The position numbers and the translations under genes are program-made. Positions 55,444 to 64,000 of a stretch of DNA of 64,000 nt are shown one piece after another; the first letter of the stretch is position 1, and each line of letters starts with the position of its first letter. The notes beneath the pieces are model-generated. The model did not search any database and was not told the origin of the DNA. It was given only the letters and a program-made list of their open reading frames with translations. This DNA is from Ignavibacteriota bacterium (GTDB lineage: Bacteria > Bacteroidota > Ignavibacteria > Ignavibacteriales > Melioribacteraceae), in the NCBI GenBank assembly GCA_002698995.1, contig PAAX01000026.1, positions 434,001 to 498,000 on the forward strand, given 5' to 3'.

Positions 55444-56298
55444 TTAAATTAAAATTTCTCCAGAAAAAACTATTTCTGCCGGTCCGGTTAAGGACAAATT
55501 TTTAACTTTCTGATTTTCTACTTCAAAGTTAACAATTAACTCTGAATTACTCTTGGTAATTATTTTTATAGGGGGATTTAATTTAAAGATTACGCTGCTT
55601 ATTAAAGCGGCGGCTGTTGAACCTGTACCGCAGGCTAATGTCTCGTTTTCAACACCTCGCTCATAGGTTCTTATTAAAATTTTATCACCATCAATTTTTA
55701 TGAAATTTACATTAACTCCTTCATCCAAAATATCTTTTGAGTATCTTAATTCCTTTCCCAATTCATAAACCGGAAAAGAATTAATATCGCTGTAAAAGTT
55801 GTTTGCATTTTTCGAATCTACTAAAACATCTTCAATATTTATGATTAAGTGCGGAGAACCGGTATCGGCAAAATGAGAATTTATCATTTGATTTGCCGCT
55901 TTTACCTTAAAATTATATTTTAAGTTTTTTGGCGAATTCAAATAAAAAGTTACATTGCCATCCTCATTAATCTTACCGGAATATTTAATCCCATTATTCA
56001 CAAAAACAGCATTATTAGAATTTATCCATCTATTTGCAAAACTATACTTTAATATTGATCTTGCACCATTTCCACAAAGCGAACCTAATGATCCGTCGGA
56101 ATTATAATAATCCATATTGAAATCAACTTCATCAGATTCCGAAATAATTAGAATTCCATCAGCACCAATCCCAAAATGTCTATCGCATAATTTCACAATT
56201 TGATCTTCAGATAAATCTATTTGCGGATTGATTTTGGAATCAAATAAAATAAAATCGTTTCCTGCGCCCGTTAGTTTTGTAAATTTTAATTTTTTCAT
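55444..56298 (-). CDS. dapF: Diaminopimelate epimerase
   Basis: A 284-residue PLP-independent epimerase converting LL- to meso-diaminopimelate for lysine and peptidoglycan. The two catalytic cysteines are C75 (SLCGNGAR) and C223 (LACGTGST). Length and order are normal. It is followed by the ABM and PHP genes on the same strand. Confidence 0.97.
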   Translation of the reverse strand: MKKLKFTKLTGAGNDFILFDSKINPQIDLSEDQIVKLCDRHFGIGADGILIISESDEVDFNMDYYNSDGSLGSLCGNGARSILKYSFANRWINSNNAVFVNNGIKYSGKINEDGNVTFYLNSPKNLKYNFKVKAANQMINSHFADTGSPHLIINIEDVLVDSKNANNFYSDINSFPVYELGKELRYSKDILDEGVNVNFIKIDGDKILIRTYERGVENETLACGTGSTAAALISSVIFKLNPPIKIITKSNSELIVNFEVENQKVKNLSLTGPAEIVFSGEILI

Positions 56299-56400: not shown

Positions 56401-56859
56401 TTAATTTGGTCTTTTAACTCTTTCAATTTCCAATTCAGATTTTATCTTTAATATTTCTTGTATGAACTGATTTTCTTCTTGTGGGGAAATTGTTAACCAT
56501 TTGATTTTATTATTAACTCTGTATTTTATAGTTAAAGTTTTGTGCGACATAGAAAATTTCCAAACGGCAGGTGTGCTGAATAAAGTAAACTTATCTGTTA
56601 TTTTCTCGATATCATCAATATTAATTTTTATTTGAAAAAATAACTGCTTTGCTATAATTAAATTGTCAGAGATTTCATAAGAAATGGAATTGTACATCAT
56701 TAAGAGATATACTATAAGTCCGAATGTAAATAAAGCGATTAGAACAACAAAAAAATTTATGGGACCCATTAGGACAAAATAAAGGGTTACGACTAAAATA
56801 AAAATTGTAAAAAAATTAAGGTAAATATATAATTTATCAATTGCAGGTTTGAAAATCAT
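56401..56859 (-). CDS. Membrane protein with PH-like domain, hypothetical
   Basis: A 152-residue protein. Two adjacent hydrophobic helices (about 13-30 and 32-50) are followed by a beta-rich tail like the bacterial PH/YcxB-type membrane domains (SYEISDNLIIAKQLFFQIKINIDDIEKI). No close family name is recognised. It is the last clear host-type gene before the element boundary at 56,900. Confidence 0.6.
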   Translation of the reverse strand: MIFKPAIDKLYIYLNFFTIFILVVTLYFVLMGPINFFVVLIALFTFGLIVYLLMMYNSISYEISDNLIIAKQLFFQIKINIDDIEKITDKFTLFSTPAVWKFSMSHKTLTIKYRVNNKIKWLTISPQEENQFIQEILKIKSELEIERVKRPN

Positions 56860-56899
56860 TTTATTATCACATTTAGAATGTAATGATTGAAAATATTAG

Positions 56900-56921
56900 T
56901 GGAGGTGGCGGGAGTCGAACC
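56900..56921 (-). other. tmRNA/tRNA-Ala-like 3' end, probable attachment site
   Basis: On the minus strand this reads as a T-loop (GGTTCGACT), the 3' half of a T-stem (CCCGC) and an acceptor strand CACCTCC with discriminator A. U at position 70 fits the G-U pair of alanine-type tRNAs and tmRNA. The 5' half of the T-stem does not match, and no rest of a tmRNA or tRNA lies upstream, so this is a fragment, as left by a tyrosine integrase using such a gene. The intact gene should be at the other end of the element. Confidence 0.6.
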
Positions 56922-57162
56922 TTTAACCTCTCTAATTTTCTAACTTATTTAATATTAATAACTTACTAAACTTCATTCTTTTATTTATTACTCCGTCGTA
57001 CGAATGTCGTACAAAATCAACAAAAAAACTCCCAATTTTTCGTTTATTTGCTCCAAATATACAAAATAAAAATAGTTAATAAATATTAGCTGAGATTATT
57101 TTTTTACTGCTATTACTCAGATATTTTTACTTATAAAGACTTTTATATGTTAGATTTTCGTT

Positions 57163-57178
57163 CCGGCAAATTTGCCGG
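57163..57178. repeat. 16-base perfect palindrome
   Basis: CCGGCAAATTTGCCGG is fully self-complementary and GC-rich against AT-rich surroundings, 24 bases after the end of a small minus-strand gene. No T tract follows, so it is not an evident terminator; it could be a protein-binding site or a folded end of RNA. Confidence 0.5.
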
Positions 57179-57201
57179 GCGTGTGGTTCGCTTTCGTGGG
57201 T

Positions 57202-57474
57202 TTATTCTGCAGTTATTTTATAAACAGCTTTACTTTCTTGATTCTCAATAACTTCTCTTTCCAATGAATACTCTAAATATTGTTTTACTTTTTTAGCTGT
57301 TGATTCGAACAATCTGATAGATGAATAAAATGTTTGATTCATTTCAAATCCAACAACTGTTGCGGCACTAGCTAAGCTGCTTAATACTTCAATCTGATTG
57401 TTGAATTCCTCGATAAATTCTTCCAAATCTTGATTTTTCAAAAAATCCGGTTTTATTAATTCTTTGTTTTCCAT
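57202..57474 (-). CDS. Hypothetical 90-residue element protein
   Basis: Mostly helical, acidic, with no signal or motif recognised (LEEFIEEFNNQIEVLSSL, then TFYSSIRLFESTAKKVKQYL). The ATG at 57474 is preferred since GGGAG lies about 8 bases upstream; a TTG five codons earlier overlaps the previous gene. It directly follows the 101-residue gene and may be co-transcribed with the toxin-antitoxin pair. Function unknown. Confidence 0.55.
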   Translation of the reverse strand: MENKELIKPDFLKNQDLEEFIEEFNNQIEVLSSLASAATVVGFEMNQTFYSSIRLFESTAKKVKQYLEYSLEREVIENQESKAVYKITAE

Positions 57475-57475
57475 T

Positions 57476-57781
57476 CTATGCTCTCCCAATTTTTAAATAG
57501 ATTTGTGACATTTTATAAACATCATCAAAGACTTCAAATATTTCCTTTCCATCGATTTTTAATCGATCTAGCTCAATGAGTACTTCATACAAAAACTTTG
57601 GATTCTCTTTATTTGCTGCAAGTACTTCTTCGCATTGCTTATAAGTTAGCTGTGTTTTAATTCTTCCCACATTTGGTAACTCAGCCTGAATCCATTTTTT
57701 TAATTGGTGTTCACCGGTTGTATCCGGTGCCGGAAAATCAACTTCCTTTTTTAGAAAATTTAATTTAGGTACACCTTCCAT
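57476..57781 (-). CDS. Hypothetical 101-residue element protein
   Basis: Helix-rich, with a Lys-rich N-terminus and charged patches (QLKKWIQAELPNVGRIKTQL). No family is recognised. It starts 17 bases after the YafQ-like toxin gene on the same strand, with AAAGGAG before its ATG, and runs into the next hypothetical gene with 1 base between, suggesting one transcript. Confidence 0.55.
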   Translation of the reverse strand: MEGVPKLNFLKKEVDFPAPDTTGEHQLKKWIQAELPNVGRIKTQLTYKQCEEVLAANKENPKFLYEVLIELDRLKIDGKEIFEVFDDVYKMSQIYLKIGRA

Positions 57782-57798
57782 AATTGCTCCTTTTTTTG

Positions 57799-58065
57799 TT
57801 ATTTAAATAATTTACTGTGTGAACCGATTCTAACTAGAATCAATTGTTCTTCTTCAATTTTATAGATCAATAATAAATCCGGTTTTATATGACATTCTCT
57901 ACAGTTTACAAAATCTCCCTTCAATTGGTGGTCTCTTAACCTCTTTGGCAGCATTACTTCGTTAAAGATCAGCTTTATAATATTCTTAACAAGTGTAACT
58001 TCATCTGAATTTAGTGCTTTGAAATCTTTCTTAAATGATTTGGTGTAATGAACTGTTTTAATCAT
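57799..58065 (-). CDS. YafQ-type mRNA interferase toxin (RelE/ParE superfamily)
   Basis: An 88-residue toxin with HQLKGDF, RECHIKPDLLLIY and RIGSHSKLF. Residues H46, H59, D63, R79, H83 and F87 line up with E. coli YafQ H50, H63, D67, R83, H87 and F91, a constant offset of four; W68 is replaced by L64. YafQ cuts ribosome-bound mRNA. The gene overlaps its antitoxin gene by 4 bases (ATGA), as expected. It should be active unless bound by the partner. Confidence 0.93.
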   Translation of the reverse strand: MIKTVHYTKSFKKDFKALNSDEVTLVKNIIKLIFNEVMLPKRLRDHQLKGDFVNCRECHIKPDLLLIYKIEEEQLILVRIGSHSKLFK

Positions 58066-58322
58066 TTATTCAGGTCCTCAAACATTTCGTCAACTGAATT
58101 ATAACCGCTACTTACTTCTCCGCTTTCAACTTCCTTTAATGCTTTTAGGGTTTCTTCATTAGGTACTCTTAGTTCAAAAGGTAGTCCTTTATGAGATATG
58201 ATATTTCTATAGTAAAGTCTAACTGCTTCGGCTTCATTGAGTCCAATCGTTTTAAGAATTTTTTCAGCTTCTTCTTTTACATCTGGTTCTATTCTTACTC
58301 TTATTTCCGCTGTTTTACTCAT
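58062..58322 (-). CDS. DinJ/RelB-type antitoxin
   Basis: An 86-residue antitoxin. The N-terminal ribbon-helix-helix DNA-binding half (KTAEIRVRIEPDVKEEAEKIL) is followed by a segment for toxin binding (GLPFELRVPNEETLKAL). It should both neutralise the YafQ-like toxin and repress its own promoter. AAAGGA precedes the ATG, and a palindrome overlapping the predicted -10 lies just upstream. Confidence 0.92.
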   Translation of the reverse strand: MSKTAEIRVRIEPDVKEEAEKILKTIGLNEAEAVRLYYRNIISHKGLPFELRVPNEETLKALKEVESGEVSSGYNSVDEMFEDLNK

Positions 58323-58339
58323 CTTAATTTCCTTTTATT

Positions 58340-58367
58340 AATTGCTCCGCATCTGTGGAACAATTTA
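58340..58367. promoter_or_regulatory. Imperfect palindrome, probable antitoxin operator
   Basis: TTGCTCCGC and GTGGAACAA are arms of an inverted repeat around ATCT, matching at most positions. It overlaps the predicted -10 and lies 18 bases before the antitoxin start, typical for autorepression by a RelB/DinJ dimer. Confidence 0.55.
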
Positions 58368-58390
58368 ATAAATACTTGTTTAATAAGCAA
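58362..58390 (-). promoter_or_regulatory. Predicted promoter of the toxin-antitoxin genes
   Basis: On the minus strand, TTGCTT (58385-58390) and TAAATT (58362-58367) are 17 bases apart, the spacing seen in the other predicted promoters here. Confidence 0.45.
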
Positions 58391-58396
58391 TGATAT

Positions 58397-59122
58397 TTAT
58401 TTATCTTTTTTAGAATCAATGACGGTTAAGCTTTCCGAGTTCTGAACCTTACCAAAATTTTCAAAGACTTTGTTTACCAGATCAAACTTTTGTTGATCTG
58501 CCAACTTTATGTATTTCTGAAATGACTTGAATGATTTATGTCCGCTTAACCGCATAACTGCCGGTGCCGGAACTCCTTTTGCTAAAGCAAGCGTGATAAA
58601 AGTTCTCCGCGCTGTGTGACTCCCAATCAATTCCCACTTTTCAAAAGTCTCTTGAATTTGTTCATTATTACGCAATCTAGTTACTTTAATCTTATCAGTA
58701 ATCTTTGCAAGCCTGGCAATTTGCTTTATATAAATATTTAAATTCTGTGAACTCATCTTTGGGAGTGTTCCAGAAAAGCTATATTTTACCAAAATTGATT
58801 GTGCTGCAGCATTTAAAGGAACAACAATACTTTCATTCGTCTTTTCTGAGACAAATTTCCAGTAGCCCTCTTTTATATCTTCTAAAGAAATTCTTTTAAT
58901 ATCAGAATGTCGCTGTCCTGTGAACGCTTGCAAACAAAATAAATCTCTTGCCTTTGTTAAATTCACTTTTGTGTAATACTTCTTTGTTTTTTGATCTCTA
59001 AAATTTTTGAAATTATCGAAATCAAAATTATATATTTTCAGAAGTTCATCTTCTGTAAGTGCTATTTGTTCTGATTCAACATCACTAATTTTTATCCGGG
59101 TGTAGTTCTTATTTACCTTCAA
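58397..59122 (-). CDS. Tyrosine recombinase/integrase, C-terminal catalytic fragment
   Basis: The frame holds the whole catalytic domain: Arg in FTGQRHSDI, HTARR (HxxR), LSGHKSF (His) and the Tyr in FQKYIKLAD. This matches Bacteroidetes-type integrases. The frame is open upstream to about 59194, where residues LDSTVNKKLAFLRTFLHWCN join the N-terminal fragment if the A7 run is corrected. The TTG at 59122 would not give a working enzyme alone. It acts in site-specific recombination, probably at the tmRNA-like site 1.5 kb away. Confidence 0.82.
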   Translation of the reverse strand: MKVNKNYTRIKISDVESEQIALTEDELLKIYNFDFDNFKNFRDQKTKKYYTKVNLTKARDLFCLQAFTGQRHSDIKRISLEDIKEGYWKFVSEKTNESIVVPLNAAAQSILVKYSFSGTLPKMSSQNLNIYIKQIARLAKITDKIKVTRLRNNEQIQETFEKWELIGSHTARRTFITLALAKGVPAPAVMRLSGHKSFKSFQKYIKLADQQKFDLVNKVFENFGKVQNSESLTVIDSKKDK

Positions 59123-59175
59123 ACCTGAGTCGTTGCACCAGTGAAGAAATGTTCGAAGAAAGGCTAATTTTTTAT

Positions 59176-59754
59176 TTACAGTTGAATCAAGATATTTTTT
59201 TCATCGTGCATCCATTTGATGAAGATGTCATAAAACATTTTATCGAAGCTGCTGAATTTTATTTTGATCTTCCTCGATTTTTCAAACTCGTTCAGGTTAC
59301 TACGTAACTGCTTAAATTTAGCAGCATTCACATCTTTCTTTAATAAAATGAAAAAATCAAGTGCGTCAAAAAATGATAAGCTGTTTAGATCAAATTCAGA
59401 TTCTTTACGAGTAAATTTTTCTTTTATTGCAGAACGAATTTCTTCGCTAGTAGCGTTTCCGTTTTCTGTAATAAAGATTGTATAAAATTTTCTAATTTTC
59501 TTTTCAAGTTCATGTAAATAATTATTCAATAAATCAGCTTGTGCAAACTTGTTCTTTCCTCTTGTTTTCGCTTTCTTATTATCTGAATCCCAAAAATCCG
59601 GATTGATCTTTTCGTAAGTATTGATAATAACCTGCTTTTTTCCCAATCCTCTTATGTAACAAAAAATTTGCCTTTCTGGATTATTGATTGAGCCTTTTGA
59701 ACTCAAATAAAAATTAATTTTAAGGGGGGAATGGTTAAAATTAGAATCGATCAT
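59176..59754 (-). CDS. Tyrosine recombinase/integrase, N-terminal fragment
   Basis: This frame encodes the arm-binding domain (LKINFYLSSKGSINNPERQIFCYI) and the SAM-like core-binding domain (SFFDALDFFILLK), then stops soon after the A7 run at 59195-59201. The ATG at 59754 is chosen as AGGA lies 8 bases upstream; ATG 59772 is an alternative. Joined to the C-terminal frame the enzyme would be about 452 residues, normal for its family. The state may be a lost gene, an error in the read, or a slippage site. Confidence 0.78.
   Translation of the reverse strand: MIDSNFNHSPLKINFYLSSKGSINNPERQIFCYIRGLGKKQVIINTYEKINPDFWDSDNKKAKTRGKNKFAQADLLNNYLHELEKKIRKFYTIFITENGNATSEEIRSAIKEKFTRKESEFDLNSLSFFDALDFFILLKKDVNAAKFKQLRSNLNEFEKSRKIKIKFSSFDKMFYDIFIKWMHDEKNILIQL
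59195..59201 (-). other. A7 run at the integrase frameshift
   Basis: On the minus strand seven A residues follow GATG; one extra A, or a -1 shift on A AAA AAT, joins the two integrase frames. Confidence 0.8.
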
Positions 59755-59780
59755 TTGTCGTTTCCTAATCATCTTTTAAA

Positions 59781-59826
59781 AAGTGTAAGTAAAATATAAA
59801 AATTACTTACGCCATTACCTACACTT
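59781..59826. repeat. Inverted repeat cluster before the integrase
   Basis: AAGTGTAAGTAA (59781-59792), then TTACTTAC (59803-59810) and TTACCTACACTT (59815-59826). The outer pair are inverted copies differing at one base in twelve, and the middle one is a shorter inverted copy. They lie between a small gene and the integrase start and may be integrase arm sites or an operator. Confidence 0.55.
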
Positions 59827-59834
59827 TACTTGGT

Positions 59835-60077
59835 TTAACTGGGGTTTTCAGCATATTGGTTTAACGCTGTAGCTTTCGCACAAATCAATAAAATTTCTCT
59901 AATCTTGTCATGGTGAAGGTTCTCAACTCCCCCAAATCTTTTAATTCTCACATCGATATTTTCATTAAAAATGATTTGGCAACCTTGATCAATCATTTCT
60001 GAAAATTCGTTCTTGGGGATGGAAAGTTTTTCTGCTTCTTCTTCAATTATTCTTTCAAGGATGGTTTCGGAATTCAT
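59835..60077 (-). CDS. Small hypothetical protein of the element
   Basis: About 80 residues from ATG 60077 (AAGGAC upstream), starting MNSETILERIIEEEAEKL. It is helical, charged and has no recognisable domain. The longer frame upstream lacks an SD and begins in very AT-rich sequence. It lies between the phage-tail-like genes and the integrase on the same strand. It could be a regulator, but there is no direct evidence. Confidence 0.5.
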   Translation of the reverse strand: MNSETILERIIEEEAEKLSIPKNEFSEMIDQGCQIIFNENIDVRIKRFGGVENLHHDKIREILLICAKATALNQYAENPS

Positions 60078-60144
60078 GTTTTGTCCTTTTGAAATGTATT
60101 TAAAATTAAACTTTTTCTTAATAAAATACAAAGTCTCGTTTCTG

Positions 60145-61806
60145 TTAAGCGATGGATTTCATTTCGAACATGGTTTTATCTAAATCATCCAATTCTTTTT
60201 TCGTTCTTTCATCAAAAATTGCGTTGGCGTTCGTTAATGATTTTTGATATTCTTTCTGAATCGATTTATTAACTCCAAAAACATTTTCTCGATTTTCATT
60301 TAACCATTTTGGAGCTACATTTTCCGGTGCCCCTTTTGTTAAGCCGGTTAATGTTTTATAAAAACTTCCATACCCGAATTGATGGTTTACAGATTTGATA
60401 TAATAATGAACTCCTTTGTAAACTTTTTCTTCTTCTTCGTGAAAATATTCTTTGTCTTCATAAATTAGTTTCTTACCGATCTTAAGACTTTCATCCCCTA
60501 CCCATTGAACCTGTCCGGATTCAAAGTATGGGAAAGCATTCCATTCATACGCTTTTTCTCTTTTCTCTAGCAGCATGTTAATAAGTCCGGTTTCATCTGC
60601 TATTTTATCAACCGGTTCAATTCTGTTTTCTTTTACTGCAGCATTATATTTTTCAGCAAGTTGTTTCCATCCTGCTGAATGAACCATTTTTGATGTTAAT
60701 TGGACTTGTCTTAAACCGTTTTTCTTTATTGAATTTTTTAGCAGCATCGGAAATTGAACTCCAAATTTGCCTAAAAGATTATTTGAGTTTGCTACAAGTG
60801 ATTGAGTAAAATTAACAGAAAAGAAATTTTTCAGATCGAAGTCACTTACTCCCAAATCTTCTTGAATTCTTTGAGAACTGTTTTTGGTTACTGATCTTAG
60901 ATCAGAGTCAAAATACTGCCAACCGTCTAATACAATTTTATCAACTAGAGAGTTATAAGAAGTATAACTAAATGGCTTTGGTCTAATTGTCATTGAATTA
61001 TAAGCTAGTCCATCGTCACCGGTTTCTGTATCAAAAAATAATTCATAAAAATCTAGATCAATTGCTGCATGTAAGTATTCTAGAATATTTCCTGAATAGG
61101 TCGTTAAATTTGAATCAAAAAGATACTCACCTTTCAAAAATTTCAAGATCAACATCGGATCACCATTTTCAAGAGTTTTTTTCTTCGGATCGAAAAATGT
61201 TTTAGCTATTAATCCGGTTGCTGAGTTGGGATCTCTGGATAAAACAGTTGAATTAGTTGCAACTGCATTTTCTAATATCCATTTTACTGCTTCAATTGGT
61301 TCTGCTGTAAAAACATTTCCCCCCTTTATCGTGGCTCCTCGTCCCCATTCAAAAAAATTAATTCTCTCTCCGAAAAAATTTCTCATTTCTTCCGATTCTG
61401 ACAATGCTGGGGAATTAGCGATAAAATCTCTGAGTAATAATTTCGGCAGCATCATTGAGGCATTAACTTTTAAGACTCTGCTATTGCTATTGTTATTAGC
61501 AACAATGCTTTCATATCTGTGATCTATTCTGCCTAAAAACGTGTGTGATTTAGAGAATTTATCAATCTTAATTGAAATTATTGAATTTATCTTTAGCAGC
61601 TTCTTAACGTGATTTAAGATTTTGTTATGTGTAATATTTGTAGATAACTTTCCGGTATTGCTCGGATTAAAAGTTAAATGTGCTGTTCCAACCGGCATAT
61701 CAAGTGAATTTTGTGTAAAAATTGTCTGTACAAATTCACTTACATCATGAAATCCATCTTCATTAAAAATAAAAACTTCCGGTTCTATGTGTCTTATGTT
61801 TTGCAT
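60145..61806 (-). CDS. Phage tail/baseplate-hub-like protein
   Basis: A 553-residue protein without a signal peptide. The N-terminal ~120 residues are beta-rich (SEFVQTIFTQNSL, FLGRIDHRYESI), like hub or VgrG-type tail proteins; the middle is mixed and the end is coiled (QKEYQKSLTNANAIFDE). No exact family is recognised; the guess rests on shape and its place after the tape-measure-like gene, where hub proteins usually lie. ATG 61806 lies 20 bases after that gene's stop. Confidence 0.55.
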   Translation of the reverse strand: MQNIRHIEPEVFIFNEDGFHDVSEFVQTIFTQNSLDMPVGTAHLTFNPSNTGKLSTNITHNKILNHVKKLLKINSIISIKIDKFSKSHTFLGRIDHRYESIVANNNSNSRVLKVNASMMLPKLLLRDFIANSPALSESEEMRNFFGERINFFEWGRGATIKGGNVFTAEPIEAVKWILENAVATNSTVLSRDPNSATGLIAKTFFDPKKKTLENGDPMLILKFLKGEYLFDSNLTTYSGNILEYLHAAIDLDFYELFFDTETGDDGLAYNSMTIRPKPFSYTSYNSLVDKIVLDGWQYFDSDLRSVTKNSSQRIQEDLGVSDFDLKNFFSVNFTQSLVANSNNLLGKFGVQFPMLLKNSIKKNGLRQVQLTSKMVHSAGWKQLAEKYNAAVKENRIEPVDKIADETGLINMLLEKREKAYEWNAFPYFESGQVQWVGDESLKIGKKLIYEDKEYFHEEEEKVYKGVHYYIKSVNHQFGYGSFYKTLTGLTKGAPENVAPKWLNENRENVFGVNKSIQKEYQKSLTNANAIFDERTKKELDDLDKTMFEMKSIA

Positions 61807-61825
61807 TAATTATTTTCTCTTTTTC

Positions 61826-64000
61826 TTATTGGATTGTGTTGGCAATTTCTCTTGTTCCGTCTGGATGCTGCAGATAAACAGTAATTCCTTTTTGTAGTGT
61901 TTCACTCAACTGTCGAATAGTCGGCTCTAAATTTTCTGAATAAGTATTAATAGGCTGAGGATTATCTCTTAAATGCTCAGGAATGGGTAACTTATTATCG
62001 ATCCAGCTTTGGCGTTGTCGTTGTTTTTCTTTAAAATTTCTGTTTTCTATTAAATCTTTTTCATCATCAGTCAAATAACCTTTTCCGGCTCTCCATGCGT
62101 CCATTGCATCTAAACCGGATAAAACTCTTTCATAAATAAATTGCTGCATCTCCGGTACTTTACTCATCTTGTTCCAAAACTCGGCTGTTTCAACCTCAAT
62201 TTGTCTTATTGTTGATCTCCAACCCTTTGCAGCTTCAATTTGAATGTTTTTTACTTCCTCAATCATTCTTTCGGTTTCTGATATTGCTTTGTTGGCTTGC
62301 TGTGTATATTTATTTAATATTTCATCATTCCCGGAATATCCCATCTGTTCGGTTTGGTATCTTTCTAATAATTTGCTTCTATCTCCTTCGGTTAAACCGG
62401 CTTCTTTAAGCAGATTAATCATTGAGTTCTGTTCTTCTCTCATTCTCTGTAATGTCATGGTAACAGTTTCATTTTCACCATAAATAAAATTACCGCTGTT
62501 CTTATCAAATCCGTTTATTGCTCTTCTTGTAATCTCTACTCCATTTCCATCAATCATGTTTGTAAGCTGTGGAATAAATCCTTTTGGTGCGTTTGGCATC
62601 ATTTCAGATAAGGCGAAGTAATTTAACATCTGGTTTCCGCCGGTCCATTGATTAACTCCCCCTAGAATTTTTCCGATATTATTAACATCATCATAAATCC
62701 CCCCTTTCATAATTTCAGAGAAATTTACTAGTCCTTCTCCCCCAAACATTGAGAATAGAAAAGCTTCATGTGCTTGGGTTCTGGGCTGCATTAATCCCTC
62801 TAAAAGTTTTAAGGTTGTTCCCCCTAAATCTGAAATTCTTCCGTATGGATTTGATATTCCGAATAAACTTTCCGGCACCGCTGCAAACTGCATAGCTTTT
62901 GTGGGATCTGCTTCAATATTTATTTTAAGCATATCCTCATTAATTTTCTTTATCTCTTGTAAAACTTCAATAATTCTTGATGGGGAAACATCATCACCAA
63001 AAATTCTATTTGTGAAATTCTGTCCTCTTGCTAGTCCGTCAATACTTGTGTCCATGCCGGTAACTCTAGCAGATAAGTTTAATCCATAAATTTCACCCGG
63101 ATTTAAGCCTAAAGCTCTTGCAAAAGTTGTTTGATCTCTGTATAAATCCTCAGTAAAAAATCCGGCAGAGTTTGCGAATGCTTCTCTAAACTGCAGTTCT
63201 TGTTCTGGGGCATAACCTAAATTAAGACTTCCTATTGCTCCTTGTCCTAATCTTGCTCTTGTTCTAGCTCTTAAAACATCATAATTACCGGTTGCATTTA
63301 CATATCCTGAAAGTGTTCCATAAGTCTGCTGCAATTTCTTTAATTCTTCCTCTGCTTCGGCTTGCGTTTGGATGTTAAAAATATCAGCAACTCCGCTTCC
63401 TACCATTCCCCCAAATCCAGCACCGGCTAAAGCTCCTAGTGGACCTCCAATAGCACCAAGTGCGCCCCCTAAAAGAGTTCCTATTAAATGATAATTCATC
63501 TCCCTGCTTTTAGTTTCGGAAAATGCTTCAAACATTCTTCTTTCGGAATACATTGAAATGGGGTTGGTTAAATTAAAGCTCGTTAAATCTTTTGCACCAA
63601 TTTCAGCTTCACCTCTTATATACCGCATTGTTTCATTAACAACCATTCCCCCTAATGCGGGTAAAGAAAGCTGCTTTAACTGATCGAAAAGTCCTCTAGC
63701 TTCTTCCTTTGAGTGATTAAGTGAATCGGCAAAATCCATGAATCTGTTTTTAAGCTCATCAATCTCGTCTTGGGCTTCCCTTGCTCCCTCAACAATTGTT
63801 GTTCTTAAAATATCTTTCTTTTCAGCACCTAAAAAATCAAAGTAAGGATCATCTAATTCGTCCAGTAAATTCTGTTGTAATTCTTCAACTTTATATTTTT
63901 GTTTAGAGAACTTTCTTAGATATTTCTTTCTCTGCTGTAAATTGAGGCTTCCGGTACTTGCATCAATATCAAGTTCCTCTAAAATTTCGGCTGCCTGCTC
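61826..64000 (-). CDS. Tape-measure-like phage tail protein, 5' end beyond window
   Basis: The frame is open from the right edge for 724 residues; an ATG at 63739 is internal, not the true start. It is coiled-coil at the N-terminal side (LQQRKKYLRKFSKQKYKVEEL), then has a Gly/Ala-rich hydrophobic region (IGTLLGGALGAIGG, GAGFGGMVGSG) like the membrane segment of tape-measure proteins. The end (VYLQHPDGTREIANTIQ) resembles tape-measure tails. Such proteins set tail length and help DNA entry. No capsid gene is visible in the window. Confidence 0.6.
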   Translation of the reverse strand, partial: EQAAEILEELDIDASTGSLNLQQRKKYLRKFSKQKYKVEELQQNLLDELDDPYFDFLGAEKKDILRTTIVEGAREAQDEIDELKNRFMDFADSLNHSKEEARGLFDQLKQLSLPALGGMVVNETMRYIRGEAEIGAKDLTSFNLTNPISMYSERRMFEAFSETKSREMNYHLIGTLLGGALGAIGGPLGALAGAGFGGMVGSGVADIFNIQTQAEAEEELKKLQQTYGTLSGYVNATGNYDVLRARTRARLGQGAIGSLNLGYAPEQELQFREAFANSAGFFTEDLYRDQTTFARALGLNPGEIYGLNLSARVTGMDTSIDGLARGQNFTNRIFGDDVSPSRIIEVLQEIKKINEDMLKINIEADPTKAMQFAAVPESLFGISNPYGRISDLGGTTLKLLEGLMQPRTQAHEAFLFSMFGGEGLVNFSEIMKGGIYDDVNNIGKILGGVNQWTGGNQMLNYFALSEMMPNAPKGFIPQLTNMIDGNGVEITRRAINGFDKNSGNFIYGENETVTMTLQRMREEQNSMINLLKEAGLTEGDRSKLLERYQTEQMGYSGNDEILNKYTQQANKAISETERMIEEVKNIQIEAAKGWRSTIRQIEVETAEFWNKMSKVPEMQQFIYERVLSGLDAMDAWRAGKGYLTDDEKDLIENRNFKEKQRQRQSWIDNKLPIPEHLRDNPQPINTYSENLEPTIRQLSETLQKGITVYLQHPDGTREIANTIQ

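Follow-up and report, generated by a model that had tools for sequence, protein, structure and literature searches.

The 3′ end of the tmRNA gene (ssrA) of the Ignavibacteriota bacterium studied here very probably harbors two site-specific elements integrated in tandem, in the order ssrA, E2, an 18-bp core, E1, a 26-bp core, a gene for a bPH_4-domain protein, and dapF. The case is built on the attachment cores, the repeats, the gene content, the boundaries of E2 in three genera, and the undisturbed gene order in relatives. The window, that is, the whole 64,000-nucleotide stretch analysed, spans positions 434001–498000 of contig C31 of the source genome (G000), to which contigs C25 and C35, discussed below, also belong. 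The first-pass annotation had described a single element at this site; there are instead two of them, E1 and E2.

The ssrA fragment and the undisturbed site

The left attachment core of E1 is a 3′ fragment of ssrA on the minus strand of the window (56896–56921). Its 26 bp (minus-strand sequence GGTTCGACTCCCGCCACCTCCACTAA) are identical to the 3′ end of the intact gene (L012:763-788), and the 22-mer at 56900–56921 occurs only twice in the 4.23-Mb genome, namely in the window and at the 3′ terminus of the one full-length ssrA (C25:124933–125286; tag GENNYALAA). Neither ARAGORN nor Rfam called a gene in the window, so that ssrA is present there as a fragment only, and other sequence stands in place of the 5′ T-stem half (TTAAAGGTTCGACTCCCGC versus GACGCGGGTTCGACTCCCGC in ssrA), which identifies the copy as the 3′ part of the gene. 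The genome thus contains a 26-bp core repeat and one intact ssrA, the pairing expected of an ssrA island. These results bear out the initial view that the T-stem is mismatched because only the 3′ part of a tmRNA-type gene lies at 56900–56921; a tRNA-Ala, which had been offered as another source, was rejected in favor of the tmRNA gene. The search for an intact gene ending in the same 20–22 bases, proposed at that stage, succeeded on C25 with a match of 26 bp. The intact gene had been expected at the right end of the element; although an ssrA with the same core does exist, the right end of E1 itself is an 18-bp partial core.

The ssrA loci of relatives (n = 29, each with 1.5-kb flanks), compared by tblastn, display the order cobalamin adenosyltransferase (cobAT), ssrA, dapF, with all three genes in the same direction. 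The dapF gene was within reach in 7 of the 29 loci, and the next host gene was also visible in L021 and L042. L021 represents the empty site that the first-pass annotation had suggested looking for, and others are likewise undisturbed. In the source genome, the adenosyltransferase gene and ssrA are located near the end of C25, whereas dapF (55444–56298, minus strand) lies to the left of the fragment on C31, a split that is expected if DNA has been inserted between them. The prediction that the intact gene would be on the same strand as the fragment fits this one-directional order; as the assembly leaves C31 and C25 separate, the orientation of ssrA with respect to the window is taken from the relatives. 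Between dapF and the core, on the host side of the junction, there is a gene for a bPH_4-domain protein (56401–56859, minus strand; PF06713). No counterpart was found in 37 relatives, which makes the gene unusable as a flank marker, and dapF was taken instead; the bPH_4 gene may itself have been inserted here at an earlier time.

E1 is a phage-like element without detected head genes

E1 extends over 15.8 kb (C31:490896–506665), from the 26-bp core in the window to a third core copy, a partial core of 18 bp with a 17-base heart, located at C31:506648, 15.75 kb to the right of the window core. This inner core lies between the divergently oriented genes of two tyrosine integrases, IntB and IntC. 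Within the 75 kb of C31 examined, the motif GTCGTAC has four occurrences (raw counts), arranged as one pair spaced by 11 bp near each end of E1. One arm-site-like pair is at 56995–57015 of the window (plus strand) and the other at C31:506506 (window coordinate 72506), at the opposite end. The sequences searched contain no close DNA-level relative of E1, and its boundaries are therefore drawn solely from the cores and the repeats.

Gene content changes sharply at the window core, as had been noted, with dapF and the bPH_4 gene on its left side and genes for a toxin–antitoxin pair, a tyrosine integrase, and tail proteins on its right. All genes of E1 within the window are on the minus strand. 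Proteins of 95 aa (57202–57489) and 101 aa (57476–57781), without assigned family in Pfam and PHROG searches, are followed by a YafQ-family toxin (57799–58065; PF15738, E = 5e-30), a RelB-family antitoxin (58062–58322; PF04221, E = 3e-17), and the second tyrosine integrase of E1, IntA (58397–59772; PF00589, E = 4e-15). Further to the right are a 98-aa protein, also without family in the same searches (59835–60131), a tail hub-like protein (60145–61806; phrog_1015, E = 1e-14 in PHROGs), and the 3′ part of the gene for a tape measure protein (61826–64000; phrog_167, E = 4e-8, and tblastn matches to prophages), which starts outside the window at L013:1229 and encodes about 800 aa. The remainder of E1 encodes an HTH protein, several small proteins, DnaB, a DnaD-like loader, an HTH_17 Xis-like protein, and IntB.

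An integrase is located near the left end, as had been proposed, although a frameshift in an A7 run near 59190 divides its gene, IntA, in two. A one-base backward shift would rejoin the two halves, and the relatives are single frames; the split could reflect a pseudogene, a sequencing error, or programmed slippage. Searches of E1 with Pfam and PHROGs retrieved only tail, replication, and integration families, with no capsid, portal, terminase, or lysis family detected, so that the head, portal, terminase, and lysis gene set of a complete prophage is not seen. Judging from its genes, E1 is a phage-derived 15.8-kb element without detected head genes. The first-pass annotation was thus right to place the left end of an integrated element here at a tmRNA site, whereas the term prophage is only partly apt, given two tail genes and a phage replication module without detected head or packaging genes.

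The boundary integrases IntB and IntC are tyrosine recombinases (PF00589) with SAM-like and arm-binding domains, and their genes begin about 200 bp away from the inner core, next to a boundary, a feature expected of ssrA islands. An alignment showed that the tyrosine-recombinase residues are retained in IntA, IntB, IntC, and two relatives. Among 19 integrase loci tested, the ssrA 3′ end or a fragment thereof was found with 0–2 mismatches near the integrases of G096, G009, G084, and G029, in addition to the source and the two other copies of E2, against best values of 5–8 mismatches in shuffled controls (five per locus). At some of the remaining loci the end coincides with a tRNA-like sequence, indicating that this integrase family uses more than one target and not ssrA alone.

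E2 is a metal-efflux island shared by three genera

E2 occupies the interval between the inner 18-bp core and ssrA, with its left end on C31 and its right end on C25. In the stretches examined, the repeat TTGTGAGA(N3)TTGTGAGA occurs only near these two ends (raw counts). The left end is 99.84–99.88% identical to sequences in G013 and G135, which represent two other genera of the same family; the match begins exactly at the core, and the left flanks beyond it differ in all three genomes. At the right end, E2 and its counterpart in G013 have 0 differences in the 2694 columns (about 2.69 kb) following ssrA, despite the fact that the ssrA genes themselves differ at 103 of 363 alignment columns (28%), which argues that E2 moved recently between genera and ends where predicted.

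The assembly contains neither a contig that spans the distance from ssrA to E1 nor a continuous E2; the contigs break near copies of insertion sequences. A single insertion sequence bridging the ends of C25 and C31 was considered and rejected, as the orientation of the transposase pieces does not fit. The contig G013:C125 bridges the end of C31 and the first base of C35, which are separated by a 7-bp gap, and its match continues to C35:18065, where the contig ends in Illumina adapter sequence (last bases of L131), an assembly artefact; accordingly, C35:18065 was rejected as the end of the shared stretch. G135:C115 matches the same stretch up to C35:15839. The bridged region encodes a CcmF/NrfE-type protein, an ABC exporter, a CusA/CzcA-family pump, a CusB-like adaptor, a TolC-like channel, and a sigma-54 response regulator, and the contig overlap thereby places genes for CusCBA-type efflux and cytochrome biogenesis in E2. 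Reading the large E2 genes as alternative complex III was abandoned because family searches returned the CusA/CzcA pump, CusB, TolC, and the CcmF/NrfE-type protein. Based on these alignments, E2 is a recently transferred island that carries metal-efflux and cytochrome-biogenesis genes.

The whole of C35 (125,896 bp; L147-L152, L158) contains three large efflux-pump genes and an IS21-like pair near its right end, with no tRNA gene in the first 120 kb. Further frames resemble metal-resistance genes, including those for mercury and copper, most of them recognized by translation alone, and family searches identified QatBCD, PrimPol-like, and HerA-like proteins. Genes that may bear on conjugation in the incompletely assembled E2 comprise that for a Replic_Relax protein and those for the PrimPol-like and HerA-like proteins on C35. 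Matches of at least 94% to C35:84520–98244 were restricted to G013 and G135 among 164 genomes. About 100 kb of additional metal-resistance cargo, corresponding to most of C35, is probably part of E2.

Alternative readings of the locus

The three cores and the integrases all lie in one foreign stretch, and IntA is already a relic inside E1, so that the region from window position 56896 to ssrA might be viewed as one large composite element whose inner core and additional integrases were left by past insertions inside it. This is improbable: in two other genera the left end of E2 stands without E1 and begins precisely at the inner core, which largely refutes a composite, and each element has a separate set of repeats at its own two ends. 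Even less credible is that the sharing of E2 arose from binning or assembly, for example, through assignment of the contigs of one element to three genomes. Some contig breaks do coincide with insertion-sequence copies, and adapter sequence terminates one G013 contig, yet E2 is joined to its own flank in each genome (the left flanks are of three kinds and the ssrA bodies at the right end of two), and the identity of the shared cargo varies from 94 to 100%, unlike that of one duplicated sequence.

The nature of E1 is a separate question. Rather than a decayed prophage, E1 could be a phage satellite that uses its own tape measure and tail hub with the heads of a helper phage, although we consider this rather unlikely. 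Its frames are compact except for IntA, and it combines an integrase, an Xis-like HTH protein, and a DnaD/DnaB module with two tail genes but no head genes. Its relatives in other hosts are limited to two partial ones, both cut by contig ends. In L063 (79–3998; G123), tape measure and hub genes are followed by an HTH_17 gene and an 18-bp ssrA fragment, with a dapF-family gene further on, so that the tail gene pair adjoins the fragment; L066 (G060) is a 3.8-kb contig with genes for DnaB, an integrase, an HTH protein, and the hub. However, head genes may lie beyond the ends of both contigs, IntA is broken, and E1 could be the remnant of a full prophage, since the order has some that carry both tail genes. 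In a search of 164 genomes of the order, relatives of the hub were found in 8 other genomes. The hub and tape measure genes lie alongside head and baseplate genes in G054 and alongside baseplate genes in G057. These contractile-tailed prophages (L059/L060 in G054; L065 in G057) resemble E1 in having the tape measure gene followed by the hub gene, with products about 36–43% identical, but possess sheath-region, baseplate, and, in G054, head genes, whereas E1 has two tail genes only. Still more doubtful is that E1 belongs to a family of ssrA-entering phage satellites with their own tape measure and tail hub, of which L063 would be the second case; if so, such satellites could build or resize tails while borrowing the heads of the helper. 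In any event, another genus carries an E1-like element in L063.

With the E1 hub alone or IntB alone as the query, scans of viral contigs gave no match, whereas the hub alignment matched four phage contigs of 28–96 kb. Named phages showed weak partial matches to the hub only (about 25% identity) and plasmids distant integrases only; neither gives a name to E1 or E2.

Proposed integration history and known ssrA islands

In prophages and islands that enter tRNA or tmRNA genes by means of tyrosine integrases, the intact gene lies at one end and the displaced 3′ fragment at the far end, with the integrase gene and arm-site-like repeats near the ends. E1 and E2 share this layout but differ in that two elements occupy one site and in the shorter inner core, the 18 bp of which would be explained by both of its flanks coming from element DNA. 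On the tandem arrangement favored here, each element would have been inserted by its own tyrosine integrase, IntB for E1 and IntC for E2, each probably binding an 11-bp-spaced pair of arm sites at both ends of its own element. Strand exchange would take place within the shared T-arm/acceptor sequence of ssrA. Element DNA would thereby restore a complete ssrA 3′ end upon integration, with the displaced fragment ending up on the far side. E1 would have arrived first, followed by E2 beside ssrA, and both may still be mobile.

Tandem ssrA islands are already known; the present case is new and unusually well bounded. In Dehalococcoides, islands including vcr-GI are arranged in tandem downstream of ssrA, with direct repeats of ~20 bp of its 3′ end between them (PMC3146451). 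Several elements in tandem with intervening copies of the gene end are thus common to both systems, the Dehalococcoides cargo being linked to a groundwater lifestyle (PMC3146451). The integrase there is the serine recombinase DsiB (PMC3146451), whereas the present boundaries have tyrosine integrases and no DsiB module, and the cargo there consists of reductive dehalogenases (PMC3146451), as opposed to metal efflux with a phage-like neighbor here. In Dehalococcoides, adjacency to ssrA was read as marking the latest arrival (PMC3146451); by the same logic E2 would be newer than E1, which fits its near identity across genera. The heavy-metal resistance islands of Mucilaginibacter, a member of the same broad bacterial group, resemble E2 in cargo and host group (PMC6316836).

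The locus represents a natural experiment in tandem ssrA integration, with separate integrases and repeat sets, one element bounded across three genera, and undisturbed relatives. Its main interest is the recent cross-genus transfer, as the comparison of E2 points to a metal-efflux island moving within one family, and with the attachment sites defined exactly, excision and transfer are amenable to direct tests. Traces of other insertions may persist in the relatives: a second 18-bp ssrA core, 323 bp past the intact ssrA and before dapF, was observed in L042 and L048 (2181–2521; G022) and is perhaps the scar of a lost element.
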